From Phorcus lineatus (Eukaryota; Mollusca; Gastropoda; Trochida; Trochidae): 64,000 nt of DNA. The stretch is from NCBI GenBank assembly GCA_921293015.1, contig OV121095.1:32461484-32525483 (forward strand). Direction: 5' to 3'. The position numbers and the translations under genes are program-made. This document shows positions 2,169-24,800 of the stretch, in pieces. Numbering within the stretch: the first letter of the stretch is position 1; each line of letters begins with the position of its first letter. The notes under the pieces were generated by a model. It was not told where the DNA came from. It was given only the letters and a program-made list of their open reading frames with translations, and ran no database searches.

Positions 2169-5100
2169 ATGACACCTAAACTTGATATTTACTCTGCAAA
2201 TTGTCAAGGGCTTAATAATGAGAAAAAGAGAATTGATGTTTTTGAAAATTTGGAAAAAAGAAAAGGCAACATATACTGTATTCAGGATACTTATTTTACT
2301 AATAGCATGGAACAGAAGATAAAATCGGAATTGAATTCCACAGAAGTCAGATTTAGCTCTCATACAAGTCAATCTAGAGGTGTAGCCATTCTGTTTCGAG
2401 ATAATTTTTAATTCGATTAAGTAAAAAAGTAAAAACAGAACAAGAAATCTTAAGTATTGCAACTGTTTATGGTCCTAACGTAGCCACACCAGATTTTTAT
2501 GTTGAAATAAAAACCAAAATACAGAGTCTGGAAACTGAAACAAATATCATATGCGGTGACTTTAATCTAGTCCAAGATCAATCAAAAGATACCTTCAATT
2601 ACTTGCATATAAATAATCCAAAATCAAGGGAAGCGGTATTTGATATGATAGAAGAACTGAACCTATACGATCCTTGGCGCGAATCTAATCTAGATACAAA
2701 ACGTTACACGTGGAGAAAACCAAAACCATTAAAGCAAGCACGTTTAGACTTTTTCCTTGTAAGAAGAAATCTAGAAAAGTCAGTTGTTACAACCAAAATA
2801 GAGCCAAGTTATAGATCGGATCATTCCATGATTTTAATACACATAGAGTTTACACATCTTGAAAAAGGAAAAGGCTTCTGGAAATTTAATAACAGTTTGT
2901 TACATGATACAAAATACGTGCGCGAAGTCAAGGGTATTATTTAAGAGACCGTTGAACAGTATCACTGTCGAAATCAGGAAGGCGATAAAGTGTTAAAAAT
3001 AAGTGAACAGCTTTTTTTTCGAAACATTGCTATGCAATATTTGAGGCTACACGATAAAATATTCAGCTTATAAGAAGAAAGAAAGATTAAAACTAGAAGG
3101 TGAATATAATGAAAAACTTGGAAGAAAAATTAGATAGTGTTGCGACTGAGGAGACAAAAACAAAATTGTTACAAGAAATCAACATTATAAAAGAGCACCA
3201 AATCGAACTTAATACATACAAGACGGATGGAATAATGTTAAGATCAAAGGCAAGATGGTATGTAAAAAGGCGAGAAACCTACAAAATTCTTTTTATCTTT
3301 AGAAAAACAAAATTTTATAAACAAAGCGATAACTAGAATGGACACTGATAATGGGCAGATAAGTGAAACAAAAAATATCATTGATTACGCAAAAAACTTT
3401 TTTCAAACTCTGTATACAAAGAAAACTGTAAAAGATGTTGACCTTGAAGCGCTCTTCATAGATAACAAAATACCTAGGTTATCTGACAATGATGCACTTA
3501 CGCTTGAAGGGGAATTGCAATATGATGAAGTTCTTGTAGCATTGAAAAATATGAAAAATGAGAAAAGCCCCGGCCCTTCCGGTTATACAACTGAATTTTA
3601 TAAATTCTTTTGGAACGATATCAACACCTACCTAATTGACTCATTGAATGCAGCATATAAGAAAGGCGAACTTTCAATAAGTCAAAAACAAGGGCTTATA
3701 ACAGGCATTCTGAAAAAAAAATAAATCAAAGGAGCAACTAAAAAATCATAGACCCATTTCATTACTAAACATTTCATATAAAATAGCTTCAGCCGATATC
3801 GGCTCGTATTAAGAACATATTACCCAAGATAATAAGTGAAGACCAAAAGGGATTTATGAAAGACAGATACATTGGAGAATGTACGAGACTGGTAAATGAT
3901 ATAATGGATTTTACTGAAATTACGAATAAACCAGGACTTTTGATATTGATAGACTTTGAAAAAGCTTTCGATTCAGTAGAATGAATGGTCGTTCATCGAG
4001 AAGTGTTTTGACTTTTTTAATTTCGGACCATCTTTAAAAAATTGGTTAAAAACATTTTACAATAACATAAACTCTAGTGTTCTGGTTAATGGATTCCCAT
4101 CAGAGTTCTTCCAAATCACCCGAGGTTGTAGACAAGGCGACCCTCTTTCGCCCTATATATTTCTTATTGTAGCTGAAATTCTAGCCCACATGTTAAGACA
4201 AAATAAAAAGATTAAAGGAATAACAATGATAGGTATTGAATATCTATTAACTCAGTTCGCTGATGATACCACCATCATTTTGGACGGCTCTGAAAACTCC
4301 TTTAGAGAAACATTGAAAGTACTCGAAACATATGCATCTTTCTCCGGACTCAAAATAAACATTGACAAAACTAAAATCATCTGGATAGGTTCGAAACAAT
4401 ACTCAAGTTTACAATATTGCAGAGAATACAACTTAGACTGGACTCAAAAACCATTTGTATTATTAGGTATTTTATTTCAACATAACAAGGCAGAAATGGT
4501 AGAACGGAACTACAAGGATAAGCTCAAGTTAATTGAGAAAGAAATGAAATTATGGTCCTTGAGAGACCTTACACCTTTAGGAAGAATAACTATTCTAAAA
4601 AGTCTAATTCTACCTAAACTTAATCATCTTTTTACCTCTCTCGCAAATCCAAAAATAGACACTATAACAAACCTGCAACGAAAATGTTTCTCATTTATTT
4701 GGAAAGGCAAACCTGACAAAATAAAACGATGTCTAATTACAAAACCATACAAGGAAGGTGGCTTGAAAATGCCTGCTATTTTCGAAACAATCAAATCGCA
4801 GAAAATATCATGGATAAGAAGGCTATTTGAACAAGATTCAAATATAAACAACCTTTTATATACATTTAATCAAACAAATACACTTTCCCCTGTTGAAATG
4901 GGACCAACTTATCTTAGAGCACATTATATCCCAAAACTCAGTAGTCAATTTTGGAAAGATGTATTTTATGCTTGGTCTGAATTACAAGAAAAGAATACAC
5001 ATGAGAGAGAACAACTCGGCCGGCAATACATTTGGGCAAACGATAATATAACGATTGAAAATAACCCGGTAGTATATGACCACTATTGGCAATCCAATAT

Positions 5101-5917
5101 TAAGTTCATAAACGACTTTTTAAAAGACGATAATACATTTCTATCATACAATGAATTCATAGAAATGTACGGAGTTAAAACAAACTTTCTTGAATATGCA
5201 GGCTTAATATCCTCACTGAAGAAATACTCAAAACGATGTTCTATAAGTAAGCAGAAAGATTTGCCCTTTATTCCTTCAAACTTAGAAATACTTTATAAAA
5301 CTAAGAAAGGATGTAGTATATTTTATTCCCGATTACTCAAAGACGATTCATTCCAAAAATTATATTACCATAGGAAATGGGAAGAAGAATTAGACATAGA
5401 TATCACACGAGAAGTGTGGAAAACGTACAATTCTATACCTTTCCAAGCAGCTTAAAGCACTAAACACAGGTGGTTCCAATACAGAGTTCTTCATAGAATA
5501 CTTACGACGAATAAGGACATGTACAATTACAGGTTGATAGAGTCTCCACTATGTACATTTTGTAATGTTGAAATAGAATCGATTTTTCATTTACTGTATG
5601 AATGTAGATGTGTCAAAAGACTGTGGCAAGATTTACTCGAATTGATTGAAAGCAAAACGGGCACTTGTTTAAGATTAAACGCAGAAAAAGTTATTCTTTG
5701 ATTCAAAGAAAGAAGAAATAACGTATTGAATTTCATTTTCATACTGACAAAAGAATACATTTACTCTCGAAAATTTACTAAAGTTTTACCTTCCCTCACT
5801 GGCCTCAAACCAAAATTGAAACAGAACTACCAACTGCATAAATTAAACGCCTACTCCCAGTGTAAATATGATTTATTTATCTCATTCTGGTCATCCTGCC
5901 ACAATCTATTTATCTAA
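2169..5917 (+). pseudogene. LINE ORF2: AP endonuclease + reverse transcriptase, broken
   Basis: Starts at ATG 2169 just downstream of a short spacer. In order: an APE-type endonuclease (2169-2940) with 'YSANCQGLN' at the start, 'ICGDFNLV' near 2550 and 'SDHSMI' near 2820, the last being the conserved SDH catalytic box; a reverse transcriptase (about 3340-4420) with 'DFEKAFDSVE', 'GCRQGDPLSP' and 'QFADDTTI', the last containing the catalytic DD at about 4262; a connector; and a C-terminal CxxC-H-C knuckle ('CTFCNVEIESIFH') near 5550. At least six stops or frameshifts split it (for example near 2410, 2942, 3337, 3724, 3983, 5455, 5701). Domain order fits the Tx1/L1 group; cDNA priming and integration would have been its role. 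Confidence 0.9.
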
Positions 5918-7700: not shown

Positions 7701-8526
7701 AAGGACTCAGCTCGCATTTATGTTCCGCTGATTATGATTATACAGTTGTTAACAAAAGATTCCAAATTTTCAAAATTAGTTAAAACAATTTGGTGTTCAC
7801 TTAAGATCATTTATCAAAAAGTGAGATTTTTCCAGAAAGTGGAGAAAAAAACTTATTTTTAAAACATTCTTAGAGTTAATACTCATAGCACTACATGTAC
7901 ACACTAGGCAAGAAGTTATTCAAAGCTCGATCATGTTATAAAAATGTTATTTAAGGTAGTGTTTTGTAAAAACCGCAAGACATATCAGAATGGTAACCCC
8001 ATTGTCTATTTAACCAGATATTTTTTTTAAATTGTTCAATTAATATTTATTGCAAAAATAAGAAAATCGCAATTTTCTATGATGCTCTTTTTGGGGTATG
8101 CCAAAATTGTTCCTGACATTCCATACAATACAGTACACAATACACGTTACTAATCTGTGGACACGAATTGCAATGAGTTAGGCGCCCCTTATATGATAAT
8201 GACTGCATTGGGTGAAACTGGCAAGGGATTCAAACCATGTACAGTTAATGCAGGCTTTATGCATATTTATCTATTTCACTTTATCAAGACATAATATTAC
8301 TATACAGTTTTAGTTAATGAATGTTAGAGTACAAAATCTATTATGATCATCCGACCTTTTTATTAACAGAATTACGACACTTTAATGTCAATTTGTACAC
8401 CTTTTTCAAGCATATCGATAGAAGGGAGACAGATATTTAATTGTAGATATGTTTCAAATTTACAAATGAAATAACAATGAAACTTAGCGAACCGTTTTCG
8501 AGGATTGCGATATAAAGTATATATAG
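7701..8526 (+). other. C1q-A intron, middle part
   Basis: Non-coding. Blocks around 7960-8060, 8090-8140, 8210-8290 and 8457-8520 align with the C1q-C intron at about 55270-55800; for example 'acaaatgaaataacaatgaa' is shared. Alignment breaks exactly where element E1 begins at 8527. Confidence 0.7.
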
Positions 8527-8657
8527 AGAATCTCACCCTCGTGTCTTCAGATATCATATATATCAACACTCGTTGATAAAAGTTAAAAATATCCAAGGTA
8601 ACTTTTAACAACGAGTGTTGATATATTTGATATCTGAAGACACGAGGGTGAGATTCT
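8527..8657. repeat. Near-perfect 131-bp hairpin at the E1 end
   Basis: Arms 8527-8575 and 8609-8657 are reverse complements over 49 bases with one mismatch; pairing continues into 'aaaagtta'/'taactttt' inside. The arm begins AGAATCTCACCCTCGTGTC. The loop is only about 15-20 bases. RNA copied through it would fold into a long stable stem. Confidence 0.9.
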
Positions 8658-9272
8658 ATTTATCATCCAATATCATTTTCAATATTAACTTTAAAAAACC
8701 AAAACACAGACACGTAACTCTTTGTCAATTTTACTACGGTCCGGCGTATGAATACATCACAATTTAATAAGGTACTGCAGCACCCAGGAACTCATTACGT
8801 CACCGTAGTATTATCAAAGAACATTAACAAATAGTCCTTCAAAAAGTTCAAGATATTGAGAAAAGTTTGAACAAAATTAGTTTCTTCCTTAATGATTGTC
8901 AAATTTCGAACACCGAATGATCAGATTTGATTCTGATTAGATATGAATTTAAATTGGAAAGTTGATAATGAAATTTGGCGACCGGCATAGTCAACAGTTT
9001 GAGGGCCGAGATGGCGGGTGGACAGTTACTGAGAATCGCTCTCACTGTCACTTTCAATGACATGTCTTCGTCGCTTGTCAGTCCTGTAATTGTTCACATT
9101 TATTGTGAAAGAACCACCAGCAATGTAGCTGGAACCAAAAATAGACTGAAGGTGATCACGTTTCGATGAAACAGTCATCGTGTTTGATGAACTTGTGTTG
9201 TGGGAAACAGCGACATGTTTCCATCGTTGACCTCGTTATAACGAGGGGCATATGGCAGAGCAGGGACTTTGT

Positions 9273-9989
9273 TTACAGCCGTGGCTCGTTATAGAGCACA
9301 AGTTGACCTGACTTTGAGGAATTTGACAGAATTGATGAAATTTGACTGTGCTGATCATCGCTTATGTGTGAGTAGTTGTTGATGCTGTGAACATTTTTAT
9401 GGCCGGTTATCTGCATGATGTGTAACCATAACAATGGCGACGTAGGTAACGCTCGATAGATGAATTGATTCAAACTATTGGCCATCATTTTTTTTTTAGA
9501 AACAACAAACATACACAGAAGATTGTTTAGAATTGAGGCTGGTAATTTGTGAATAGGACGAGTTTCACCTTCTGTTGCCAGGAATTGGGTCAATAGGTTA
9601 ATGTCTCTCAAAGTTTTTCTAGCGGTATTTTTGTTGTCTTAAGCTTGTGCAGTAATTAAGGCATCAACATCATTCTGACTTACTTTGGCAAATCTAGAGT
9701 TAGTTGGTTGTGGTTCAGGAACACTGAATGGTGGTTCTGTAACTCTAGAACTTGATGTTGCAGTAGATGTGTTTGATGGTGTTGATATTGTTGACGTCTG
9801 CCCACCTGATGATTTATTGTCATTAGTTTTTACTAACGAAAGCCTATGTTGCATCACCACGACTTCGTAATCAATCTCATCAATGACACAACGATAACTT
9901 CCTTCACCTTCATCAGATAAGACAGTTACTTGGCCAGTATCATCAATCGATACCTTATCCCCTTGATGGAAAATATTCATGTCGGCCAT
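9273..9989 (-). pseudogene. Crypton-like tyrosine recombinase, internally deleted, one in-frame stop
   Basis: Read on the minus strand from ATG 9989. Residues 1-55 form a small beta-rich module ('GDKVSIDDTGQV', 'YEVVVMQHRLSLV') followed by a Ser/Thr-rich linker and 'FAKVSQNDVDALI'. After a TAA at 9639-9641 the same frame continues with 'NKNTARKTLRDINLL' and 'IHKLPASILNNLLC', typical of the start of Crypton-type (DUF3504-like) recombinases in molluscs. It then jumps to the very C-terminus, 'ITGHKNVHSINNYSH', which holds the GH..(x)..Y motif with the nucleophilic tyrosine. The central domain with the first Arg and the HxxR box is missing. DNA strand exchange would have been its role; this copy cannot act. 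The domain identification is from motif memory, not a search. Confidence 0.7.
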
Positions 9990-10069
9990 GTTTGTTTACC
10001 TCTCAAAATGTAAATGAAAATAGTTCCGTTATATTATTAACCAATCAGCAATTAGCTCAAAATTTGTCA

Positions 10070-10128
10070 AAACGATATCTCCTAGGAGATATCGTTTGAT
10101 CTTCCACAAGCGATATCTCCTGTGGAAG
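10070..10128. repeat. Palindromes in E1 subterminal region
   Basis: 10070-10097 is a perfect 28-base palindrome centred on CCTAGG with half-sites AAACGATATCTC. Immediately after, 10101-10128 has arms CTTCCACA/TGTGGAAG around another GATATCTCC. The triple GATATCTCC pattern could be a recombinase-binding site array. It lies 80-140 bases upstream of the E1 ATG, next to a CCAAT box (10041-10045). Confidence 0.8.
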
Positions 10129-10147
10129 CCAATATTGGATGATAAAT

Positions 10148-10348
10148 ACATTTGTATACATAGATATGTTTACAAAAACAACAAATGAGATAACAATTGA
10201 GATATACATGTATTATACGTTGTGTGAATGGCCTTTAGAGATTCATTGAGCTAAAAACTATAGGTGATTCAAAAATCTTTCAATAGAGTTTACTTCGAAA
10301 GTGGTGCCTCGGTAGTCCAAAAAAGTCAGGATTGCAATTTTCCTCAAA
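10148..10348 (+). other. C1q-A intron, resumed after E1
   Basis: Aligns with 55800-55960 of the C1q-C intron, for example 'gtgtgaatggcct' and 'ttcgaaagtggtgcctcg'. In gene C exon 2 starts about 150 bases later; here it does not, and homology ends near 10348. Confidence 0.75.
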
Positions 10349-10648
10349 TCGGTTGTATTCGGGGAAATTGTTATTTTCGGGGTGCGATCAAAATTATTTA
10401 TTTTAGAAAAAATATCTAACTTAACTATAACCCCCAAAAAATGTTTTTAATCATATTAGTTTACAAATAATGGATAAAGGAAATTCGGTTGCGAATTGTT
10501 AGAGTTAGAGTTTGAAGAGTTAACTTGATTTTCTTTAAAAGCACATAATTCTATCTTTTGTTTAGATCTTTCTGAATTCTCGGTCTTTTTTACGCAAGCT
10601 GCCATTTGCAATCGAGTCGAAGGGAAGAAACTCTAGTCCCCACGTAAG

Positions 10649-10726
10649 ATGGACGACAAGCAGGCGAAAGAGCGCGAATTTGAATGCGCTGACGGATTGT
10701 TGAAATTTGTTAATTTGAAAAGAAAG
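10649..10726 (+). CDS. Possible short first exon, unidentified
   Basis: ATG GAC GAC AAG opens 26 codons (begins MDDKQAKEREFECADGLLKF) ending at a consensus donor AAG|GTATGT at 10726/10727, phase 0. The context is more GC-rich than its surroundings, with 'tccccacgtaag' just upstream. A hairpin (10898-10981) follows. I recognise no family; it could be the N-terminus of another transposon protein. No continuing exon was found. Confidence 0.25.
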
Positions 10727-10897
10727 GTATGTTTATACATACTAAGCCAATTTCACCGTCAAAGTCACTTTCACTTTTTAATTGCACTGCGAGCAATAAA
10801 AGATAACTTATTTAATTCAATTGCCAGGAGTTTGTATGCATGATAATTACAAAATACACTACATCATAAAGATATTATCATGCTCGTTGCGGTGGTA

Positions 10898-10981
10898 GAT
10901 ATCCTGCAATTGGAATAAACACTATGCGTTTAACTTGCCAAGGCTAGCAAAAAACAATGTTTATTCCTTATGCAGGATATT
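10898..10981. repeat. Hairpin, 24-bp arms
   Basis: GATATCCTGCAATTGGAATA (from 10898) pairs with the segment ending at 10981 that reads 'ttattccttatgcaggatat'. Similar in style to the hairpins in elements E1, E2 and E4, but no flanking inverted repeat was found. Confidence 0.75.
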
Positions 10982-11744
10982 CATCATCCCAAAGCACACT
11001 CGCGTGATAACCTCTATATAAACATTCATCTTTGACCAAGGGTACATGATAAAACCTAAAAGCCTATCTTAATGCACACCGAATGCACCTTCTTCAGTGA
11101 ACCTGTCCCTTTAACACGATATTTAGTATCCCGTATTTTCATGTTGAGTCCCTAACTTTGATTAAATGTTTAGAAAATGAATCCCTCTATTTAACATTTT
11201 ACTCAAGATTTTATAATTTTTTTTGGTTTTGTAATATTTATCAATTATAGTATTTGCATCTATGAAACATTGTCAGTTTCAAATAAGCACTTTAAAAACT
11301 GTTAGTGCACGTTGCCTTTTCGAAATCTCTCTAATCATCTTTGAGAAAGTTTTATGCTTAATTGTAAATTAACTGTATATTATATATTAATATGTAGTTA
11401 AATCGTTTATTTCTATAGGGAACACGTAGGCAATCTGCCATGGTACACATGATATTGGTACACATATTTGTGATAAATATTTGCTCATAATAAAAACATG
11501 CATATGGCAACACGTTTCATTAGTTCAATGCTGCAACTGGACAGCAATAGGTTTGAAGGGTAAAATTAATATACATGTATACCAAAGGTCATTTTAGTAA
11601 ATCTTTAATTATTTCATTATTTCATTGATAGTTTATTACTTGCAATATTTAGCTAGAATGAACCCTGATATGTGTATGATATAAGTTCCCCAAACGCTAG
11701 TGGCAGAAACAAAGCAATATCACTACAAAAATGACTTGGTTTCC
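10982..11744. other. No gene seen
   Basis: AT-rich non-coding DNA with many stops in all frames. Nothing recognisable. Confidence 0.6.
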
Positions 11745-12311
11745 GGATCACTGAAACCAACATGAAACGACATGGAAACCAGTATTTCCACTTAGTATCC
11801 AGATAGGTTTCTATAGATTCATGTTGGTTTCCATGAAAACTGAAACCTACTTTTGCCCCAGATCCGGATGGTATCCATCACCGTTCTTTACACACTCCTC
11901 CAAGTAGGCTCCACTTGGTTTCCGTGATTGAAGTTTCATGTTGGTTTCCATGAAAACTGAAACCTACTTTTGCCCCAGATCCGGATGGTATCCATCACCG
12001 TTCTTTACACACTCCTCCAAGTAGGATCCACTTGGTTTCCGTGATTTAAGTTTCATTGTGGTTTCCTTGAAACTGAAACTTACTTTTGCCCCAGATCCGG
12101 ATGGTATCCATCACCGTTCTTTACACACTCCTCCAAGTAGGATCCACTTGGTTTCCAGGATTTTAGTTTTACTGTAGATTTACACTTGGTTTCCTTGTTT
12201 AGTCAGTTTATTGTATGTTTCAACCTGGTCTCCATGTTCAGGTTTATTCTAGGTTTCAACTTTGTTTCCGTGTTTTGTTAGTTTATCGTAGGTTTCAAAC
12301 TAGTTTCCATA
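11745..12311. repeat. Tandem repeat array, 117-bp unit plus shorter degenerate units
   Basis: Three head-to-tail copies of a 117-bp unit: 'ggtttcc' anchors at 11826, 11943 and 12060 are exactly 117 bases apart, and 'ccccagatccggatggtatc' recurs in each. Copies 1 and 2 are almost identical; copy 3 has a few changes. Downstream the array degrades to 50-60 base units built on 'aggtttcaacttggtttcc'. Flanking bases before 11821 are diverged versions of the same motif. Confidence 0.9.
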
Positions 12312-13645
12312 TCAATTCTTTTATTTCGGTTTGTAGGCCATCGGCCCATGTACAATACATGTTAACAATTTTTATGATTTTGTAGAGTAGACAATAAAGT
12401 TATACAACGATAATTTATAACATGGTTAATTCATTGACATTCTTCTATAAGCAAGCGCTTCTCTGATGAAATTAGAATATTTTACAAGGGAATATTGTTA
12501 TGTAGTGAGATTAAAAGTAAATTAGAATATGGGTTTTTAGGAAATATTCAGTATATTTAAAATAAGGTTAGAATAGTTAAATATTATTTCAAAGTAGCAA
12601 ATGTGTAGACAAAAGACATAATAGGACAGGTGATCAAAAGGTGCGTGTTCTTTAGTTATTAATCATGAGGAACAAGGAAGAGAAATGAGTTTAGGCCAAG
12701 TATTCTGACATATGTGACATTTGGTCAATTGGAATTTACGACCAAGCCAAACATGTAATCATTCTTATGTCAAAAACAGCTTGGTAAGAAGAATAAATGA
12801 GAGATAAAATGCATTATCGTGACGTTATGAATTACTAAGCATTTGCTAAAGTGTATTATTCAATTAGAGAAAGTAGGTAGTGACGTCACAAAGAGGTTAA
12901 GGTTCGAAGTTATCGAGGTCGAAGGTCAGAGTACACTTCTGACTGACATATGTCATAGGGTATAGTAAAGAAATGATTGGTCAAGAGAAAAACACACCCA
13001 TGAGAAGATTAATGTGATCAAGGGTTAAAAAGGGGATGCACGGTCAGTTAGAGTAACTTTTAGGAAGAGCAGAGCTGACCCAGGAAGAGTAAGAAGTTGG
13101 ACCAGGGAGGCCAACATCGGATAGGATGGGTAATGTATGAAGGGAGTAAAGTAAGTATGGGGTTAGGGTTAATAGTTAGGTAGGTAGGTAGGAATAGGAA
13201 TTGTGTACTGATGTAACTGCTTTAACTGTTTTTATAATAAAATAATGAAAAACCTTTCCTTGTATTTATTTACAAAGTGTACCTCTTGCAGGCTTATAAG
13301 CGAGTTCCCCACGTCAAGCGAGTAAGCGTGGCGAGAGGAAGTAGTAAATAAAAGTAATATATGACAATATCTACAATTACTAGTTAAAATATTATGATAT
13401 TGAGTAACAAAATTTAACTGACCATTTATAAGAATGTATTTATCCCTTATTACATCATAAGCATTACATTCGAACAAGAAATGTATAGCACTTTCAGTTA
13501 CACCACAATCACACATTTTACACCTCTTATCTACATTCACACCTCTAATATTGCAACGTAGAGGGAGAGAATTTAATCTAAGAAGACAAATATTTCTTCT
13601 TACAGATACTTGGTTGATAAAATTAACATAAAACTTATATATTGT
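12312..13645 (-). mobile_element. 5'-truncated LINE fragment inserted in the tandem array
   Basis: On the minus strand the fragment begins mid-ORF at 13645 and ends at about 12312 with 'ggccgatggcctacaaaccg' and 'aataaaagaattgat', a 3' end typical of molluscan CR1/RTE-like LINEs. It is flanked on both sides by the same 60-base piece of the array (12251-12310 and about 13646-13705; five differences). That is either an unusually long target-site duplication or insertion between two array units. Confidence 0.7.
13232..13645 (-). pseudogene. LINE ORF2 C-terminal zinc-knuckle fragment
   Basis: About 137 codons open on the minus strand, ending at 13232. They contain 'RRNICLLRLNSLPLRC' then 'CKMCDCGVTESAIHFLFEC', a CxxC...H...C knuckle as found at the C-terminus of non-LTR reverse transcriptases. 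There is no reverse-transcriptase domain; the fragment is 5'-truncated, as is usual for LINE insertions. About 900 bases of 3' UTR follow. The open frame runs on into the tandem repeat up to 13705, but those residues are not part of the element. Confidence 0.7.
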
Positions 13646-13705
13646 AGGTTTCAACTTGGTTTCCGTGTTTTGTAAGTTTATCGTAGGTTTCAAATTAGAT
13701 TCCAT

Positions 13706-14757
13706 GTAGTGTTAATTGTGTGTTATTTATGTTGTACAATGAACAAATACATTAATTACCATAAAATATTTATTGCAATAAAGACAAAAAACATTCATGG
13801 AAAGTTAAAATACCTACAAGGTAAAATGTAAGTGTGAATTTATGGTGGTTCACAGTGTATGCCGATGTTTTAAAGATTTTATAGAAAATATTACCAATCC
13901 ATTCACTATCAACATTTATTCAAACACACAATTTCAAAGAAGGAATTCATCTTTAAACGAGTAGTAAGAAAACGTAATTTTTCACTTTTTATGAAATCTC
14001 CAATCTTCATTGAAATAATTATTTTATGACAGCTGTGAATATAAATATATGCATATGATGGTTTAGAAATGCCTTTAGTTATTCACTGCAAAATTAACAA
14101 TCTACAAATGTGCAAAATATACACAATTCACCCTGTTCACTTTTCAGATGCTTTGGATTGGTCTTTATTGGTCTTTATTCTGAAACAGAAAACAATTGTA
14201 CAGATACTTAAAATATTCATATGAGTACATGAAGTTGAGACACATTCAATCTTCCACAGTTACTCTTTTCGAAAGCATACATATCAATTAGGGAAAGTAG
14301 TTAACAATACACAATTGCTATTTGGATTGACTCTGCAAAGTGGTCGGAAGTCAACAATCAATCCGTATGCTTATTTAACAATTGAATGTACTTACGGCCT
14401 TGCAACCCTCCTTGTTTCGTCAGTGAACACCTCAGATAAGCAAATTGAATTGAAAATGAAATTGATATAATATATCTCTTATTTTGAATTTCGATAAAAA
14501 TCAGCAATTTTATTTTCAAGTTATACTAAAATATGTTGGATTTATCACCATAACAACAAAAAACAATAAGACATATAAAATGATAAAAATGAAGTAATAA
14601 TCTGTTACAAAGCCGTCATAAAATTATTATTTGTAGATAACAAAAGATTTGATGACATTTGAATCGGTATATACGTTTAACAGTTATTTCAGGTTCATAC
14701 ACTATTCATTGTTTTGAGTGTTGGAAAAAAAGGACCAAATATTGTAATTAAAGAACT
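13706..14757. other. No gene seen
   Basis: AT-rich non-coding DNA. 'tggattggtctttattggtctttattc' at about 14155 is a small internal duplication. Nothing else recognisable. Confidence 0.55.
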
Positions 14758-14855
14758 TACTGTATGTTTGACCTCGTTTATAAGTCGACCCCCCTCCTTG
14801 ACCCCTCAATTTCTGGTATAAAAAACTCGACTTATACACGGTAATATACGGTAAT
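14758..14855. mobile_element. Short palindromic MITE-like element
   Basis: About 98 bp whose ends are inverted: left 'ttactgtatg' with 'tataagtcgacccc', right 'ctcgacttata' with 'atacggtaa'. Almost the whole length can pair, with a C-rich middle. Elements built on TATAAGTCGA and TTACCGTAT are common in animal genomes. No coding capacity. Confidence 0.6.
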
Positions 14856-16514
14856 TGAATAAATTATGTTTAAGCACAAAAATTATTTCTCACAGCAGGC
14901 AATGTCTTCAATTGCCAAACTTGCAACCAAGTGCATAGAGTAATATCAGTAAAACTTACAATAGTAATACTGATTGGTAAATAGAGAGCAACTCACATTG
15001 AATAAGCATTACTGTAAGGCACTGTATGTATCTTGATGGTTCACACTAAAATTAACGTCATAACATCAGCAACATGGTTAATCTTCTAAAAGTTGACATA
15101 AGTCAAGCAGAGTTTTAAAAACCAATTGTTTCATTTTCATCTAGCAAAATAATATTCTTTTGCATAAGTTATACTTTAAAATATCTCATTTTACAATATT
15201 CTTAAAAGTTGAATACAGGAAAACCATTAAGTTTGAGACTTGCACATTAAATAGTATCCAAAGAAAAACACAAACATTTAGTTGAAATCGAAAGTTTAGT
15301 TGAATCATGGTATAACAACTGTTACTTTTCCCATCTTTTTGAAATTCTACTATTTGACAGAAAACCTACATAATTTCAATGAAAACAAAAAGATATAGTA
15401 GAAATTGACGGAAATATGAAATCCCAAAATAAAGTCAAAAGCAATTGGTGTCAAGTACATCCAGTTGTGACATCTTGATCCCGACTTCATGCCTAATCAA
15501 GCTTGAAAATAGTTAACTCAAATGAGGCATGCATAAAGGGCATGTTCCGACAAGGGAGAGCAACGAAAATGTGCCAACTGCGATATACACGGAAACCTTT
15601 CTTAAAGGATTTTACAATACAATGATGTTAACATCCATTCTATATCCTTTCTAACGTTAAAATCGGAATATAACAACATCAAGACGAAACACATTTGATT
15701 TTACTCTTTTTCAAAATAAAGTCGCACATCTGACAACATTGTAGAGCATATGCATATTTTCCTATAGAGTTCGGCTATTTTCGTCTGTGACGTGATTTCA
15801 GTGATGTAAAGTCAAATCAGATGTTCTATTCGAGTAGAGACTTCATTTTACTAATTGATATTACAATCCTAGATTTTTCTTGATTATAACTAAGTTTTCC
15901 TACTGAAAAATTCAACGATTTTGTCTGGTTCTTTGGCTAAAGTAACTAGGTACTTGGTGCTGAATCCCACTGTATTCATATCATTAATATATCCGTGGCG
16001 CGTACATTTGAAATATCAGTCGTTTGTTCAATAAGCTGTTTTTGTTTATATAATGATGCAAAAAACTATCATTATTACCGTCTAGCTCATTTTACAACCG
16101 AAATAGATGAGAGTCCCGAGGGGTGCAAGGGTGAGTCGATCAGCCTGTCAATATTCATGAACTCTTTGTATTTGCAACTTTCATAAACGTATTGTTGTGG
16201 TTAGAAAAATATAATCATGACTTTAAAGTTGCCTTTGCTTATCAATGTATAATCTTAAAATTCCTCCAACATCTGCTTTTTGGCTTGTTGACAAACACGT
16301 TGCATACGTACTGAGTTTGGGCTAAGAGATGATAAGTTAAGGACTTGAAAATTGGCTTTTAATAAAACATTTAATATGGGAATGTAGTCTTATTGATGAA
16401 ATAAAATGTCCCAAATTATAAGTGAAAAGTATTCAATTTTGCTTGGCATAGATGATAAATCATTTACCATACCGGATAATTTGACAGAAAGTTCAATGTG
16501 ATTTTTCATTTCAG
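14856..16514 (+). other. Non-coding; last 230 bases are C1q intron sequence
   Basis: AT-rich with no credible ORF up to about 16270. From there ('cttgttgacaaacacgt') to the exon at 16515 it aligns with the end of the C1q-B intron (30190-30390), including 'aaaatgtcc' and the pyrimidine tract. So exon 2 of A shares intron flank with gene B. Confidence 0.65.
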
Positions 16515-16906
16515 GCCTGAACAGGGAAATATCCTTTCAAGTCAAGCAGATTAAGCGTCCTTACACGCCAGGTGCCTTCGAACCTCTCAAGTTTGATGAC
16601 GTCACACTGAACAAAGGTGGAGGTTACAACCCCGCTTCCGGTATCTTCATTGTTCCAATAACCGGAACCTATCTTTGCTGGGCCAATATCGTAGCTCATA
16701 GAAAAGATATTTTCCGTCTGACACTGATGAAAGAAGGAAAAGAGCTTGTAAGAGATTATCCTGGAAATGAACTAGGTTCTGGAACTGCCACTATCACTTA
16801 CTTGATGTTACATTACAAGGGTGAGCATGTCTGGTTCGCTGTCTATGGCGGTTCCTTTAACATTGCTGGAGAGATATTCTCTAGTTACGGATGTCATATA
16901 ATGTAG
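16515..16906 (+). CDS. C1q-domain exon (exon 2), C1qDC gene A or an orphan exon
   Basis: Intact C1q globular head of about 130 codons. It follows a good acceptor (TTTTTCATTTCAG|G at 16514/16515), enters in phase 1, and stops at TAG 16904-16906; AATAAA follows at 16922. Landmarks: 'ISFQVKQIKRPYT', 'GYNPASGIFIVPITGTYLCW' (the conserved strand with the aromatic-Gly-Tyr core), 'LMKEGKELV', 'GEHVWFAVYGG' and the terminal 'SSYGCHIM'. Compared with B it ends a few residues early. The head forms trimers and binds ligands in bivalve innate immunity (family knowledge). The nearest upstream exon 1 (6273-6543) carries a stop, and homology suggests this exon derives from a B-like rather than a C-like gene, so it may be an orphan. 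Confidence 0.8.
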
Positions 16907-16927
16907 TGTAACATTCAGTGTAATAAA

Positions 16928-17650
16928 TGGAACATGAAACAAACATTGTCAGTTCGCTGTTATTTCAAGAAAATGATTCATGCAATATGACCAAATCAAA
17001 CTTCTCTCATACTAAAAACGTGTGACTTCATCTGAGAAATGACTTGCACGATAACAAGTAAAATTTAGTTCAAATCTCTTATCGATGGTACATGACTTTC
17101 CCTTCTATATTGTCTGCCATTTTATAAGTTACAACCATTGATATAATATCCCTTTATATCAAAATTATCCTGCCAATTGGAGTCCTACAATCATGACTGT
17201 GATTGTTTGTTACCATCTGCCATATCTCAATCTTGTACAAGGCCTTGTACAGTTTGAATTAGCAAGGGAAATAATGATCCAAAGAATTAAGCCTCTTATG
17301 TAAAGAAAATAAGCACTTGTGCTATTGTTTTGCAGAGAATATCAATCATGATAGCATCACTGGTGAATACTTTCATAAGCCATGCTTCTCTTGGTTCCCG
17401 GCAAGAATGGAGAGGAAATTTATGTTTTCACTGGTCATTTGTCAGTTTTTTTAATTACCTTGCATGTTGATTGGTTGACGTAATTTCTTAAGTCTCATTC
17501 ATAAATTGTCTAGAACTTCTGTTATGATTTAAGACCTGCATTTTAAAAGTAACTCGTCAGTCTAACATTCATACTATAAACTTAATCTTTAACGGTGAAT
17601 ACAGAACATAATGCAAGACTGACAAACTGTTAAGAACATCAGGTAAAGCT
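16928..17650. other. No gene seen
   Basis: 3' flank of the C1q-A exon. AT-rich with no recognised feature. Confidence 0.55.
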
Positions 17651-17934
17651 GAGGTGAGGTGAGTGATTTTGGGTTTAACGCTGCTTTCAAGAGTATATCA
17701 TTTATATCACGGCTGCTAGTATTATGACAAGGAGAAAGCCCTGACCGAATCAGCTGGAACTAGCACACCATGGGTGGTACTCTGCTGCAATTCATTGTAG
17801 CATTGCACCCATAATTAATTGCGTGTAGAACAGTTTTCAACTGCAGATAAAGTTGCCGAACACCTGACGGAATTCGAACCATGAACCTCTTGATCCGAAG
17901 CCGAAAGCCCTAACCATTGCGCTATCCAGCCCCT
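17651..17934 (-). mobile_element. tRNA-derived SINE copy S1
   Basis: Read on the minus strand: a tRNA-like head from 17934 with an A-box-like 'tagcgcaatggttaggg' and a B box GGTTCGAATTCC (17869-17880), a central region with 'accatgggtggtac' (plus-strand reading), and a 3' tail 'gggtttaacgctgctttcaa' near 17671. Two other copies in the window (24488-24800 minus, 53106-53373 plus) share the same order, so this is a real family, similar to the 'tttaacgccgctttcaa' SINEs common in molluscs. Confidence 0.85.
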
Positions 17935-19159
17935 CAGTTAAACTAAAGTAGGCTAAAAAGCTTGTCCTGTTGAGTTGAGGAAATGCAACATGGCCTATAT
18001 TAGAAAGTGTTATAGACTGATGGGAGTTTTTACTTTGACTAGAATTATAGCAGCAATTAATATTACAATTACGTTCAGTAATATCATGATAAACACATGA
18101 GATTCTAGCTTTCCAAAGACAATATCAGTTTGAATAAAATTCGATACCTAAGGGATACATGTTTGATTTTATGTAAGGATCAAGAGACAGATTTGTGGTC
18201 GAGACAACAAGCGACCTGACTACTTCAGCATTCTGTGTAGAACTTGCATTGTTATGGTTTTCTTTCGTACGAAAAAAGTCGTGCTGTGTAATTTAAAGCA
18301 TGTACCAATGGTCATTACGATCTCACAATTCAATTGTTAAGAAATGGAAAGTTATTTGCTAGACACTTTTGAAAAGCCTTACAGAACAACTTTTACAAAC
18401 AGGTTCTTGATCTCAGGTAAACAGTGCCTTAATCACTTTTTTACAAAATAAATATATTGATTGATATTTATAAATATTGACTTCAGGTCATAGTTTTTAG
18501 TCGTTACAATGATGGGATCTCAAGAAACGTGTGAGTAGTACCTAAATAAATTGTAGAACCTAAATAAAACAGTTACAAACGATCCATTTAATTGAATTGA
18601 ATAGACCAAAATATCAATCGTTCTTACCTTCATGATACAACATCTTCTTATTTTGATGATTTGATTGGATTTTGTGATCTTGTCTCATAAATGGTATTTG
18701 TTTCACCTTATCAAATGTTTATAATGAATGATCTATGTTTATTTGTGTGTAATGCTTTGCAAGTGAGTAAATATGGATTAACAAGAGGAAACTTGCTTTG
18801 GTTGCTACAAATCTTGCTTCCCTCTGATAACATAACCATGTTACAAACGGTTTCCGTCTCCTAATAATCTGAGGAAATTTCAACATAGGTAACACGATAC
18901 GTCACTTTCATTTAAGTTTATCGTCATATGTCCTAGTTCTAACTGTTTGTTGATGAATGGTGTCCTTGCAGATTCAGAAATGTATATATCGGAAAACACA
19001 CAGTGTATGCATTGTAACGTTTAAGAGGTTCACCAAGGCACTTGAAGTTCATGAAGTTTGTGAACAGATATCAAAACTAAAGCATGCGGGTGTCAATTAA
19101 TGTTAATTATGGATCAACAAAGAGTTATCAAACTTGAATACAGCATTGACCCAAATCAT
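17935..19159. other. No gene seen
   Basis: AT-rich non-coding DNA. I see no feature I can support. Confidence 0.55.
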
Positions 19160-19545
19160 CAATATCTGTTGTGCAAGATCTACCTTTTGTAAATCTCATT
19201 GTAGTCTATCCACCATGTGTTCGACCTGATTCATATCCGGACCTTTCGCAGCCAGGGGTAACCAGTCAACACATTCTTGAAACAGGACGTTTATTATTGT
19301 TGCTGCGCGATAGGGGCCAACGTTGTCTTCCTGCAGCAGAAAGTTGTTGCCAAAGACGTTTCTTACACAGAAGGGACGTCTCTTCCAGTACAAATGGTAT
19401 GTCACTTCATTGATGTTTCTTTCCACCACCAAAAGTAGAGTTTCACCATCAAATGGATCACGCCCTGGACGAATAATGACCCATCTCCATCAGCGACAAC
19501 ACCACCTTTCAACTCATATATACATATATTTGATTTGTTCACTGA
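19160..19545 (-). pseudogene. Tc1-like transposase C-terminal relic
   Basis: Minus-strand frame 19432-19196 reads 'NFLLQEDNVGPYRAATIINV' then 'GPDMNQVEHMVDRLQ'. These are the degraded Tc1/IS630 motifs F-QQDNA-RPH-A and P-DLNPIEH-WD-LQ, with the second catalytic D of DDE in 'QEDN' and the final E in 'VEH'. The preceding frame (19587-19402) holds a weak match to the strand before it. No N-terminal domain or inverted repeats are found. Confidence 0.75.
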
Positions 19546-20139
19546 ATTGTTAAAAAAAGTTGTTGATAACTTTGAAGTTATCTTCACAGAGTTTTGCTTA
19601 TCATTTTCACAAAAAAAGTATAAGTCTTTATAGATTGTTGCAATATGTTTTCTTTTAACTTCAAAAAGTAATCATCACTGATTATTTTGGTACAAGCTTC
19701 ACTTTATATTTCCACTATAAGATGAAAATGATATGTCGATTGCAAAAGCCAAAAATACAACCTTATGACAATTGATGTTAAATAAAACACGTGGAATAAA
19801 CAGGTAAAACAATAGATGATATTAAGGATGTTACGACAAATATACTTTATATACGAACATAAGTCGTACCTCATTCAAAAACTGTCTAGATTTTACACAA
19901 TCATAGCATTGTTCTGTAACGTTTCTTTGCCACATCTCTCTATCCTATGATTGGCATGTCTGCATCTTTCAGTTCTTCTCATGTTCCTATAAAATCGTTT
20001 ACGTTTTAGGTGAGTTATCAGGGAGAGTTTCTGAAGTATTCGTCGAGGGCGAAGTACCTTCTTTTCGTCTTTTGGGGGGCCTTATTCACACTTGAAATTG
20101 ATGCTGAAATGAAAGTAGCATATGCCTTTATCATCGGGT
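19546..20139 (+). other. Upstream region of decayed C1q copy D, with TATA box
   Basis: Non-coding. TATAAAA lies at 19988-19994, preceded by 'cctatgattggc', resembling 'cctattggc' upstream of the A and C boxes. This marks the remains of a C1q promoter. Confidence 0.5.
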
Positions 20140-20390
20140 AGTATGCTTGATGACATCCGCCGTGTTGAGAGGGCAGTTTGCGATATGACTAGGAAGGTCA
20201 ACCTCACCAAAATCGAACTTACTGCTTAGAAAGACTTAAAAAAAACCTAAATGGATCTTGAGGTAACAAACATATTCCGAAAGATCCTAGACAGGAAGCT
20301 TCCAAATGGTATGTCAAGATTGTCCCAATCGGACACCATGGATGAAACTATCGAGGAATTACAGATATTACAGTTTTACAGGGTATAAGT
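20140..20390 (+). pseudogene. Decayed C1qDC exon 1 (copy D)
   Basis: The open stretch reads 'GSMLDDIRRVERAVCDMTRK' and 'VNLTKIEL', a clear relative of 'GPMLDNILRLERAVNNISWE' in gene B. It is interrupted by TAG after about 30 codons, has lost the signal-peptide frame, and has an A-run where coding frame is lost. The signature Cys-Gly is changed: the codon preceding the conserved Gly no longer encodes Cys. Later residues ('DTMDETIEELQ') match 'LDIMEERMEEIA' of gene B. It sits between the TATA at 19988 and the C1q remnant at 22294. Confidence 0.7.
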
Positions 20391-22293
20391 GAGTTAACTA
20401 TTGAACATGTAATTGAAAATATCAATTGTTGCTCAATCATCGCTCATTGAAGATGTATTTCATAAATGATTATCTCACTGACGTTGAACGTCAAGTAATC
20501 TTAATATAAATACACTGTTGTTACGTTTTTCTTTTCTGAATATTCGTGTCAATAAATCAAATACAGAGACAAATTATTAGAATAATGAATTTGACATCTG
20601 GAATAAGAGTTGAAAAAGGGAATGGGTAAAGTTGCCTCAGTAGGTTATGCCAATTAATAAACTATCAGTTATCTACAATGAGTGGTAGATTTTGAGAGAA
20701 GGAATACTTCTAAGTTTAACTAGCTAAAAAAAAGTCTGTGCTTGCAAAAATAATTGCTGGTGTTGGTATAGGTTAATCAGTTCATAAGGATTTGAGTATA
20801 CAAGGGGGAAACAGTATAGCTTTCTGTTATTCCGTTGGATTATAAGAAGTTAATAGTATTTTATTATATGAAAATAATCATTCTACACGAACTGCAATCA
20901 GCGTTGACCTAAATAAGTAACCTGATGATTATTAGCTATCACTCAAATAGCTTATCTATCTTGGAAGTGAAAGTGTTCGACACAAGACCTTAATATTATT
21001 CACTTTGATATTTAAAAAATAAACATCTCCTTAAGTAGATTTAATCAATAATTATACATGTTTGTTTATATCAAACAAACAATGAACGTTTTCTTTCATT
21101 CTCATTTTAAACATCTTCATATAAGCTCCATATTGAAATTCTCCATGTTTTGAAAGTTTTAAATGTAAAATAATTTATTTGTGTACAAATAAAGCGGGAT
21201 ATTTTTTATTTGATGTAAAGTACACTTCTCTGTCCATCAGTGATTAATGTGACAATGCAGAACCATTAATCCCGAACAACCCCATATATATATATATCTG
21301 TAGAAAATGACAAAAAGACCAGTATTCGCAGAACATGCCGACAGTTCAACCCTTTTAGTAGAGGAATCGTAGACCTTCAATAATTATATTTTGCAAGTTG
21401 GTAGTCGTTTATGTTTATGTTAAAAAAAATATTTGATATTAAGAGTACAGTGTGTTTAAATAAATGGGTACTTATTTCTGTAAGGAAAACATTTTAGTAT
21501 GTTTTTTTAACATGTTTTCTTCATCAAAATCGATTTGTATTGTGCTTTAACTTCTTACATGAAGTTTCATCCACAATGGCTGTACAAGATCTCAATCCCA
21601 AAATAAACGATAAGTAGGCTTGTAATGAATCAATGAAACGATTAAGTTGGTAAAACACCTGGACAGCTGGATTTGCATTTCCTTTTCAACTTATTACATG
21701 TTGATTTTTATGCAAGTTTTGTCAGCGAAATATGGTAAATTAATGTTTTCAAAGTATTAGTTTTTTTTATATTCAAGAAGTTATAATAAAAATAATATGG
21801 TAAATTTAGCTTTTTATTCTTTAAATATAAACTGATTTCATATATTCAATTGTCGATTGTATCAAACGTTATAAAGAAAAACGTTTGATTTGATATTTAA
21901 TTTATGTAGAAATTGTATGATATATAATTAAGCGTTTAACCAGAAAATCATTGATACAGTTGATTCCTTTTACTTTTATGTCAGGATACAATGTGCCTTT
22001 TTACGGTTCATCTTACATCGATGCTAGAGTGCATGGTGGAGAAAGTCTGTATCTGAGATATATAATCCAAATCGTACCAGGGTGACATAATGTCTACAAA
22101 AACTAGTTTATTTCAAAAGATAAGATCTAGTATACGATAACATTGATCTGTGTAGTAGCCTAAGAAGACATAATAATTAAACAAACATCGATATTATTGT
22201 CAAATTAAAAAAGATTTCCACATAAGGCACTGAAAGTAAAGCATCTCAATAAAATGGAGGCTGTCTCGAAATAACTTTATGGGTTCATTTTGG
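20391..22293 (+). other. Presumed intron of copy D
   Basis: AT-rich non-coding, no ORFs. A short (TA)n run is at 21284-21296. The size (1.9 kb) matches the introns of genes B and C (2.7 and 2.0 kb). Confidence 0.45.
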
Positions 22294-22416
22294 GTTCATC
22301 TTTAGATGACCTGCAAAGAGGGGAAGCATGTCTGGTTTGTTATCTCAGGCAGTTCCTTGGCCATGTACGGAAATCGCCATTCAAAATATGGCTGTAACCT
22401 GATGAACTTAAAATGA
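22294..22416 (+). pseudogene. Decayed C1q exon 2 (copy D), C-terminal part only
   Basis: From 22324 the frame reads 'KHVWFVISGSSLAMYGNRHS' then 'KYGCNLMNLK' and TGA (22414-22416), which is the last third of the C1q head, ending with the same 'YGC-x-LM-x-x-K' tail as gene B. Just before it, 'LDDLQRG' is in another frame because of one extra G near 22321. The first two thirds of the exon are not recognisable. Confidence 0.75.
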
Positions 22417-22534
22417 TAAATGGCATCAGTCCCACAGGTTGTTATCACTCTGTTCAAGATTCATGTTACAACATTTTATCTTTCGAATAAGTTAATATCC
22501 AGAACATAATATCATGAATAACAATTCAAGGAAA

Positions 22535-22650
22535 TGCTGGCACCATTGGTGGTACTGAACTGAAATTCAGTGTACCATTGTATCCAAACATGATTGCTAA
22601 CTACCTTGCAGGTTTCAAACACAGGTACTCTTGCCCCGAAGCACATATTG
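22535..22650 (-). mobile_element. SINE fragment S4
   Basis: Matches the central part of S2: 'ggtggtactgaactgaaatt' and 'cagtgtaccattgtatccaaa' against the corresponding S2 region at 24650-24690. Head and tail are lost. Confidence 0.6.
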
Positions 22651-23026
22651 ATAAGGGGCGTGTCTAAACATAACGATCACCTTTTAGTTGTTAATATACT
22701 TAATTCACACTCTCAAATATGTAGATATGTAATATAAAAACCTAACTGACCAGGGCATTATGCAAAATCTTAGTGGTCTCCTCAATATTACGATATTTAC
22801 AAAAACAAAAAACTTTCCTTATAGTCGTGATTTTAAAGACTGTCAGATGCCATGTCATAACTTTCTCATGACTAGTGAATAGTTCACTGTAATAAACAAA
22901 ACCAAATTTACTATATACAACTTATTTTTCTTCTTATATTTTACTGGAAGGTCGATTTTGTAACACATGTGAAAAAACGGTTGATGCCCCATTTTCATCA
23001 CCAAAGGTTGGTTTTTAATATCATAA
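22651..23026. other. No gene seen
   Basis: AT-rich non-coding. Confidence 0.55.
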
Positions 23027-23060
23027 GTTACCATGTGTCCACGAGTTTGATATGGAAATA

Positions 23061-23132
23061 TATCATGTGTTCGAGTTAAATATCAAACGAGAACGAAGTT
23101 CGAGTTTGATATTTCACTCGGACACATGATAT
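23061..23132. repeat. E2 left hairpin
   Basis: Arms of about 32 bases, 'atcatgtgttcgagttaaat' paired with 'atttcactcggacacatgat', four mismatches; the apex is built from 'gagaacgaagttc'. Confidence 0.85.
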
Positions 23133-23316
23133 ATCTCCATTTATTACACTCTCGTTGGAGATACTACAGTTGTGAAACAATGACGTTATTCAACACTGTT
23201 GTGAAACATTGCACGTGAAAGCGATCGCATCCGGAACTATTTTCCTATTATTTGTCACATGACAAGTTATCATGATGTAAATCAAAATAGCAATTAACAT
23301 TCCTCCCAATCAAATA

Positions 23317-23574
23317 ATGCAAATTAGTTGTCACAAAAATATCCAAAGCATAAATAATTACTGTCAGTTGTCCGAGAAACAGCACAGAGATATCAGCACA
23401 ATTATTAATCAACGTCCATCTTCTTCAAATGTAAATATGTCCTCTGAATCCAGGTCAAGCGGGCTTTCGTCAGTAGATCGGGCAAAGTCATCCCTGCCGA
23501 TTTCGGTAGATTCTTGTCAGCGTCAGTGCTTCCAAATTTCGATCGATCAACTCAAACTTCGGTGGTTTCGTTAG
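23317..23574 (+). pseudogene. Crypton-like tyrosine recombinase, C-terminal fragment
   Basis: Opens with 'MQISCHKNIQSINNYCQLSE', closely matching 'MQITGHKNVHSINNYSHISD' of E1. This is the final recombinase segment with the conserved His and the nucleophilic Tyr; the Gly before His is replaced by Cys here. It continues with a Ser-rich tail to TAG-equivalent loss of frame near 23574. The catalytic Arg boxes are absent, so it is not active. The strand agrees with the orientation of E2 relative to E3 (shared right end). Confidence 0.7.
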
Positions 23575-23990
23575 CAACTGTCTCATCAATGTTAAATTCA
23601 TCGGCAACAACAAGGACAGTGTTCCTCCCACTGACACTGACTCAAACTAAATGAATCGCGCTTCAAAACTCACATTCCAATGACGTAATAACCACGTGAC
23701 ATTCATTCACACAACTCAGTAACGTTCATTCAAGTAATTCAGTGACTGATGTTATGTTTAGTTAACTCGCCAATTTGTGTTCGTAGTGACCAAAACACGA
23801 ATAAGTACCTTCCATTTGAATTGTTCAAAATTAAAGCTGTTATAAACGGACTTACTCTTGGCCTATTTCTCCAATGCAGTCTAAGACTTGTATTCTTACG
23901 CACAAATATAAGAATTGAGAGTAAACATGATTTTGATTTTATATTATTAATTTAAAGAGTGTAATAAATAAAATACTAAACGTCGTCCAG

Positions 23991-24094
23991 TTTAATAACA
24001 TATTTATGAAACTCGTGGATAGTATTGGTATTTAACTCGCTTTCGCTCGTTAAATACGACTACCATCCACTCGTTTCATAAATATGTTATTAAA
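23991..24094. repeat. E2 right hairpin
   Basis: Arms of 34 bases with three mismatches ('tttaataacatatttatgaa' and complement) and an inner stem 'tatttaactcgc/gctcgttaaata' closed by a TTTC loop. Sequence to either side of it is shared with the right end of E3. Confidence 0.85.
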
Positions 24095-24144
24095 CGGAAC
24101 GTCATTTAGTATTCTCAATATCAAACTCGTGGACACATGGTAAC

Positions 24145-24487: not shown

Positions 24488-24800
24488 AAGGTGAGTTGGG
24501 GTGAGTTGGTGTTTAACGCCGCTTTCAAGATTATTTCACTTATATCGCGGCTGCTAGTATTATTGCAGGGAGAAAGCCCGCAACACCATTGTGGCTATGC
24601 CTTGCGGTGAAACCTGCGAGCATCGGCTGGAACTAGCGAACCATGGGTGGTATTGCGCTGAATTTCAGTGTAGCATTGCACCCAAACCTGACTGGGTGTA
24701 CAACAGTTCTCTACTGCAGACAAAGTTGCCGAGCCCCTGGCGAGATTCGAACCACGGACCTCCTGATCCGAAGCCGAACGCGCTATTGAAGTGTCGGACT
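24488..24800 (-). mobile_element. tRNA-derived SINE copy S2
   Basis: Best preserved copy. The minus-strand head begins near 24800 with 'caatagcgcgttcggcttcg' and B box GGTTCGAATCTC (24743-24754); the body has 'gaaccatgggtggtattgcg' (plus reading) and 'gtgtagcattgcacccaaac'; the tail is 'tttaacgccgctttcaa' at about 24511 with a 'gtgagttgg' end. The short ORFs over it are accidental. Confidence 0.9.

Follow-up and report, generated by a model that had tools for sequence, protein, structure and literature searches.

Inverted repeats and palindromes around Crypton-like tyrosine-recombinase remnants in the gastropod Phorcus lineatus: a tentative family of elements with ends of its own

Cryptons are mobile elements that carry a tyrosine recombinase, and for those of animals no terminal repeats have been found; in the parts of PMC3212892 available to us, a comparison of 50 CryptonI copies is described as giving neither direct nor inverted terminal repeats, fungal Cryptons are credited with short direct repeats, and non-autonomous derivatives of animal Cryptons are reported. 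Since animal Cryptons have been reported without terminal repeats, their ends and their targets have been hard to approach. Ends made of a repeat plus a palindrome are described, in an excerpt of PMC7492417, for the Helentrons of oyster. Here we analyse a stretch of 64,000 nucleotides, hereafter the window, from the trochid gastropod Phorcus lineatus (assembly GCA_921293015.1, contig OV121095.1, positions 32,461,484 to 32,525,483, forward strand; positions below are those of the window), in which two elements, E1 and E2, combine remnants of a recombinase-like gene with inverted repeats and long palindromes. With somewhat less than even confidence, E1 and E2 are read as inactive copies, shortened by internal deletion, of a Crypton-like family that has ends of its own, each set consisting of an inverted repeat and a 3' palindrome. 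The evidence base is these two remnants and one bare end, E3, all within the window. Among the titles and abstract openings listed in searches of open-access papers, a scope without most subscription papers or Repbase, none pointed to an animal Crypton with inverted repeats.

A paralogous site without the insertion puts the extent of E1 at about 8528-10153, and its parts are as follows.

8517-8527, no strand: left flanking duplication GTATATATAGA, matching 10154-10164 at 10 of 11 positions
8527-8657, no strand: palindrome of 131 bp that adjoins the left inverted repeat; its outer edge is the insertion boundary
8657-8673, plus strand: left copy of the inverted repeat, on the 3' side of the gene, subterminal
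9276-9638, minus strand: second part of the recombinase remnant, with MQITGHKNVHSINNYSHISDDQH at 9348-9416; the enzyme's middle section is absent
9639-9641, minus strand: in-frame stop codon between the two gene parts
9642-9995, minus strand: N-terminal part of the gene (MADMNIFHQGDKV...), with no family match
10070-10097, no strand: perfect palindrome of 28 bp near the 5' end of E1
10132-10148, minus strand: right copy of the inverted repeat, on the gene's 5' side, with the insertion boundary 5 bp further out
10154-10164, no strand: right flanking duplication GTATACATAGA
55738-55841, no strand: empty-site paralog of the E1 insertion

The empty site, which the initial annotation had placed at 55795-55805, was confirmed by a paralog that lacks E1 and aligns on both of its flanks (8051-8525 with 55311-55805 at 65% identity; 10158-10324 with 55797-55960 at 73%). 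Duplication of a C1q gene together with its flanks accounts for this site; C1q-domain genes with duplicated flanks recur at 16502-16903, 30378-30797 and 56090-56476. Because the paralog is only 65-73% identical, the boundaries of E1 are uncertain by a few bases, and the duplication may be shorter or absent. The match of 10 in 11 is the best between the two 24-bp junctions, and one of that grade arose in 15 of 4000 random 24-bp pairs and in 59 of 4000 A+T-matched pairs. As a separate observation, the target region in the empty paralog (55733-55811) is weakly self-complementary, at 67% over 81 bp.

The perfect inverted pair that had been annotated for E1 is real and measures 17 bp rather than 16. 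Its description as the termini of the element did not hold, since the 131-bp palindrome lies outside the left repeat and inside the insertion; with the palindrome's outer edge as the boundary, the left copy is subterminal. Agreement between repeats and insertion boundaries, on which the initial annotation had made its proposal depend, was thus lacking on the left, where the offset is about 130 bp, and was close on the right, where it is 5 bp. The gene is oriented with its 3' end facing the palindrome.

E2 and E3 comprise the following parts.

23027-23053, plus strand: left outer inverted repeat of E2, 27 bp, perfect
23055-23138, no strand: left palindrome of E2, 84 bp, between the outer and the inner repeat
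23139-23152, plus strand: left inner inverted repeat of E2, 14 bp
23281-23571, plus strand: recombinase remnant of E2, with IPPNQIMQISCHKNIQSINNYCQLSEKQH at 23299-23385; the N-terminal and middle parts are missing
23956-23969, minus strand: right inner inverted repeat of E2, 14 bp
23972-24116, no strand: right palindrome of E2 (E2R), 145 bp, homologous to 32137-32282
24118-24144, minus strand: right outer inverted repeat of E2, 27 bp, perfect
32128-32283, plus strand: E3, consisting of GTAATAAAT of the inner repeat plus a palindrome, and aligning with the right end of E2 at 70% identity

The 27-bp outer pair of E2 was found to be perfect, as annotated, and the inner pair proved to be 14 bp instead of 13 bp long. 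The inner repeats of both elements do start with ATTTAT(C/T)A; the palindromes of 84-146 bp beside them are absent from the initial annotation. Its span of 8527-24144 does hold both elements, but they are distinct insertions, and the roughly 13 kb that separates them is made up of other sequence, a C1q exon included. The similarity of E3 to the right end of E2 stops at the end of the palindrome, just short of the E2 outer repeat. E2 may be nested mid-way in an older palindrome, of which the outer repeats would be the arms.

The motif G/C-H-K-N-(V/I)-x-S-I-N-N-Y, previously noted as a recombinase C-terminus, is encoded in both elements, and pairwise BLASTP gave 49% identity between the E1 and E2 proteins over 39 residues (E = 2e-11). 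In single comparisons, E1 aligned to residues 398-426 (E 1e-5) and E2 to residues 396-426 (E 4e-5) of L001, a 442-residue viral-contig integrase with Pfam Phage_integrase at 269-420, and the His of the H-K box and the Tyr nine residues later were in register. Among the PHROGs, integrase families were the only ones to which three of five fragments (one being a sub-piece of another) gave matches, and these were weak (E 0.02-0.25); the N-terminal part of E1 had no PHROG match, and the 39-residue piece of E2 matched one family of unknown function. As a control, none of ten shuffled fragments matched an integrase, and two matched families of unknown function. By these comparisons the fragments have the appearance of a tyrosine-recombinase C-terminus. 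From the R-H-R-Y tetrad, the H-K box and the Tyr alone survive, the part with the other residues being lost, and an alignment of 39 residues is too short to support a tree.

Viral and prokaryote collections were scanned five times for relatives, and nothing closer than one viral-contig integrase was revealed. The E1 part gave seven pattern stretches and no relative in viral contigs, where the 39-residue E1/E2 alignment gave 30 stretches and one relative, an integrase; the E1/E2 alignment A2 gave 145 stretches and no relative in genome contigs. A DUF3504 motif gave one viral-contig and five genome-contig stretches, none of the six being a DUF3504 protein by eye. The remnants presumably resemble the DUF3504 proteins of animals.

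The codons of the two remnants speak to how the gene came to lie there. Across 32 aligned codons, the differences between E1 and E2 number 9, 4 and 22 at positions 1, 2 and 3 (binomial p = 3e-4), with proportions of synonymous (pS) and non-synonymous (pN) differences of 0.86 and 0.27; over all 39 codons the counts are 15, 8 and 28, with a pS of 0.83 and a pN of 0.35. Synonymous sites are near saturation. The preponderance of third-position differences implies that E1 and E2 stem from two ancient lines, in both of which the protein stayed functional for much of the time after their separation. The pattern shows past protein-level selection on the recombinase, and this speaks for a resident gene rather than a casual capture.

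A casual capture is what is supposed by an unlikely alternative, in which E1 and E2 are foldback or MULE-like elements that were moved by a DDE transposase in trans and took up a Crypton-like recombinase gene, comparable to the composite MarCry-1_FO. The long palindromic arms suit such elements, the 11-bp duplication and empty site of E1 come near the 9 bp given for MuDR-type elements in the portion of PMC3627910 seen, and a precedent is described in PMC3212892, where MarCry has repeats of 16 bp and duplications of TA. However, the scanned reading frames of E1 and E2 contain no transposase match, and two near-saturated yet selected recombinases in similarly built elements would call either for a long-standing functional link or for capture on two occasions. 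The two ends of E1 are also asymmetric. Long terminal inverted repeats at both ends characterise MULE and foldback elements; a palindrome stands at one end of E1 and at both ends of E2, and any likeness between the two in E2 is weak (1 of 300 shuffles).

All four palindromes fold more stably as DNA than their dinucleotide shuffles, with z values of -19.6 for E1, -8.8 and -9.5 for E2 and -4.9 for E3. The repeat motif T(A/G)ATAAAT lies within 2 bp of the palindrome at E1-left, E2-left, E2-right and E3. A joint motif, TRATAAATRGAATMY, spans the junction of repeat and palindrome; E1 and E3 have exact copies of it, and copies with a single mismatch lie at E2R and at a C1q 3' end (16921); 0.01 exact matches are expected, the motif itself having been derived from these ends.

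To separate the palindromes from the repeats, the palindromes alone were compared, with the repeats left out, in 36 comparisons against 300 palindrome-preserving shuffles each. The score of E2R with the E3 palindrome (E3R) was reached by none of the shuffles, that of E2R with the left E2 palindrome (E2L) by one and that of the E1 palindrome (E1L) with E2R by four; E2L with E3R, at seven, equalled a pair with an unrelated foldback, and E1L with E2L (33) and E1L with E3R (257) showed no relation. The ends E2R and E3R are homologous by this comparison, while the E2R-E2L and E1L-E2R relations appear borderline. A single sequence family of all four palindromes was considered and dropped, only E2R-E3R being clear once the repeats are left out. 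When the inner repeats were included, E1L-E2R, E2R-E2L and E2R-E3R beat all 60 palindrome-preserving shuffles, as did none of the 33 other pairs (five unrelated foldbacks included); for 26 of these, over 10 of the 60 shuffles scored as high. What E1 shares with E2 and E3 is the end plan, the ATTTAT(C/T)A repeat start and the short joint.

Alignment of the E2R and E3R hairpins, with the pairing structure taken from E2R itself, revealed nine of 59 pairs to be changed on both sides and still paired; 32 were unchanged, seven one-sided, ten broken and one fell on a gap. Sliding one arm by 1-3 columns left 0-3 double changes. Arm-to-arm conversion could also produce the double changes.

The chance level of inverted pairs was taken from 30 Markov shuffles of the window, in which pairs 500-2000 bp apart were counted. 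Pairs of at least 14 bp occurred 1.2 times per shuffle and pairs of at least 17 bp 0.07 times (2 in 30); since the longest shuffled pair was 19 bp, the 27-bp pair of E2 is decisive by length alone. The 17-bp pair of E1 is suggestive of more than chance, and the 14-bp pair of E2 has weight only because palindromes adjoin both of its sides.

This frequency of 14-bp pairs is one reason to consider that old recombinase pseudogenes merely came to lie beside independently inserted palindromic repeats; the many other foldbacks in the window (25 listed) and the E1 palindrome, without clear relation to those of E2 and E3, point the same way. We hold such a coincidence to be improbable, as palindromes lie no more than 2 bp from the repeat motif at four ends, E2R and E3R are homologous with the repeat motif included, and the double changes keep the hairpin, subject to the conversion mentioned above.

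The order of parts at the 3' ends also recalls Helitron2 or Helentron-type (HINE-like) non-autonomous rolling-circle elements, which would have picked up recombinase pieces. In their published plan, according to excerpts of PMC3627910 and, for oyster, PMC7492417, a short repeat stands near one end and its partner directly before the 3' hairpin, and this succession of repeat and hairpin is present at E1 left and E2 right, E3 having the same joint and no recognised partner repeat. Against such an origin, which we consider quite improbable, the 3' repeat of E1 stands about 131 bp from the end, not 20-30 bp, and the 11-bp duplication of E1 is out of place, though Helitron2 families with target-site duplications exist (PMC3627910, in excerpt). 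No complement to the 5' repeat was found within 40 nt, the best in E1 being 4 bp (1763 of 2000 shuffles were as good) and E2 having none. The scanned frames of E1 and E2 gave no Rep or helicase match, and neither element contains a tandem-repeat array.

DIRS elements have inverted terminal repeats, and tyrosine recombinases are encoded by DIRS- and Ngaro-type retroelements too. Remnants of such retroelements would bring a recombinase and inverted ends together, but such a source is very improbable, given an E1 gene that starts 143 bp from the end repeat and reads into the recombinase piece but for one stop, and scanned E1 and E2 frames with no reverse transcriptase or RNase H match, itself weak evidence because both elements are internally deleted.

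Under the reading that E1 and E2 are relics of a Crypton-like family with its own ends, complete members would encode a Crypton-like tyrosine recombinase and have asymmetric ends: at the 5' end, an inverted repeat of 14-17 bp would lie close to the boundary, and at the 3' end the matching repeat would be followed directly by a palindrome of 130-150 bp as the outer end. Recombinase supplied in trans by full-length copies would bind the inverted repeats and pair both ends, its active-site tyrosine would cut, and the element would be released and reinserted, so that the recombinase itself would be what moves it. The palindrome, extrudable as a hairpin or cruciform, would mark the 3' end, and copies with both ends but without the middle of the gene would have moved as passengers. 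In E1 the gene has lost its middle but keeps its 5' and 3' parts, and both repeats are present; E2 retains both repeats and the 3' part; internal loss of the gene with the ends kept is the pattern of non-autonomous DNA transposon copies, which need their ends in cis.

Several results weigh against this reading. Its weakest step is the 11-bp flanking duplication, which plain site-specific recombination does not explain and which a tyrosine recombinase would not be expected to leave. The tyrosine-recombinase identity put forward initially is backed by the L001 alignment and the weak PHROG matches, but the remnants found no recombinase in Pfam or in a PDB profile search (0 PDB matches). The ends are not uniform, the right end of E1 having no long palindrome outside its repeat, and the E1 palindrome is, as far as the comparisons above indicate, not clearly related by sequence to those of E2 and E3. 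For E2, no convincing flanking duplication was detected, the best being 7 of 11 at the outer edges and 7 of 11 at the palindrome edges; a match of 9 in 11 at the inner-repeat edges is caused by the motif GGACACAT, which recurs in the palindromes. With palindromes on both sides of E2, the orientation of its gene relative to them says little. In E3, neither a recombinase piece nor a 5' end was found, and its candidacy as a third recombinase copy, with an N-terminus like that of E1 from 31650 onward, was rejected, 1889 of 2000 shuffles being equally good. The untranslated regions of E1, E2 and E3, on the 5' as on the 3' side, gave no clear alignment beyond shuffles (best score 20 versus 19).

Separately, the palindrome centres were considered as core sites of the recombinase and discarded, the four folded loops being 13, 3, 4 and 8 nt instead of one fixed spacer.

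That there is an animal branch of Crypton-like elements whose recombinase works on inverted ends capped by palindromes, with a target duplication of about 11 bp and cut-and-paste-style ends, is possible but doubtful. If the family is real, its recognisable ends, paired palindromes and empty site would make excision and integration of an animal Crypton-type element directly testable, and if the proposal is true, repeat-annotation programs would gain a signature by which to recognise copies with a decayed gene.

Beyond E1, E2 and E3, the window contains several C1q genes, remains of LINE-type retroelements and dispersed SINE-like repeats. LINE-type endonuclease and reverse transcriptase remains occupy 2405-5452 in separate reading frames, and a SINE-like repeat is present in three copies, one of them inverted, about 70-73% alike (17652-17912, 24489-24785 and 53130-53367). 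A stretch of 2,990 bp at 57087-60076 has at its limits a perfect inverted pair of 17 bp, TAATTAACCTATCGCCA, and further in a pair of 16 bp at 57153/59962; it has no listed frame of at least 95 residues, contains a foldback (58142-58262) and 39-bp tandem repeats (58413-58561), and is probably another non-autonomous DNA transposon. Two nested, perfect 20-bp inverted pairs about 2.9 kb apart at 38744-41657 (38744/41638 and 38815/41566) suggest a further inverted-repeat element. The imperfect palindromes at 44739-45029 (about 290 bp) and 48726-49034 (about 310 bp) are 68-69% self-complementary, and sequence comparison gave no clear relation of either to the E1, E2 or E3 palindromes. Searches for Rfam families at the gathering threshold and for tRNAs returned no match.

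Among described systems, whose sources were available to us in part, CryptonA elements (PMC3212892) are alike in that a tyrosine-recombinase gene is the only gene seen in E1 and E2. They differ in that E1 and E2 have inverted pairs of 17, 14 and 27 bp as well as palindromes, the E1 pair lying inside the insertion boundaries. They may differ also in their flanks, CryptonA elements having no target-site duplication and at most short direct repeats, E1 an apparent duplication of 10 in 11 and E2 none. MarCry-1_FO, a mariner/Crypton composite of Fusarium (PMC3212892), likewise holds a recombinase, one of Crypton type, within inverted repeats, which are 16 bp long, but carries a DDE transposase and TA duplications, neither of which was seen in E1 or E2. 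MCi-2 of Mucor (PMC3627910) is similar in having a partial recombinase, there of Crypton type, and flanking duplications, there of 11-12 bp, and differs in being fungal, in lacking recognisable inverted repeats and in its Fanzor protein. Starships, which are fungal elements with a DUF3435 captain, are also moved by a recombinase and have short flanking repeats, and Icarus, a putative captain-less Starship, has inverted repeats at its edges, as do E1 and E2; going by the available descriptions (PMC9594970, PMC12506042), Starships are set apart from E1 and E2 by their giant size, fungal hosts and other recombinase family.

Helitron2 and HINE elements share asymmetric inverted repeats and a hairpin or palindrome straight after the 3' repeat (PMC3627910; PMC7492417, both in excerpt). 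Their enzyme is of the rolling-circle type, and their 3' repeat stands 20-30 bp from the end, against 131 bp in E1 and a palindrome of about 145 bp in E2R and E3; their 5' pairing segment, sought as exact complements within 40 nt, is missing in both elements. The end plan of E1 and E2 thus resembles that of Helitron2 and HINE elements without their diagnostic spacing and pairing, and with a hairpin several times longer. Their gene resembles that of Cryptons, a likeness that we in part presume, without the repeat-free ends of Cryptons.

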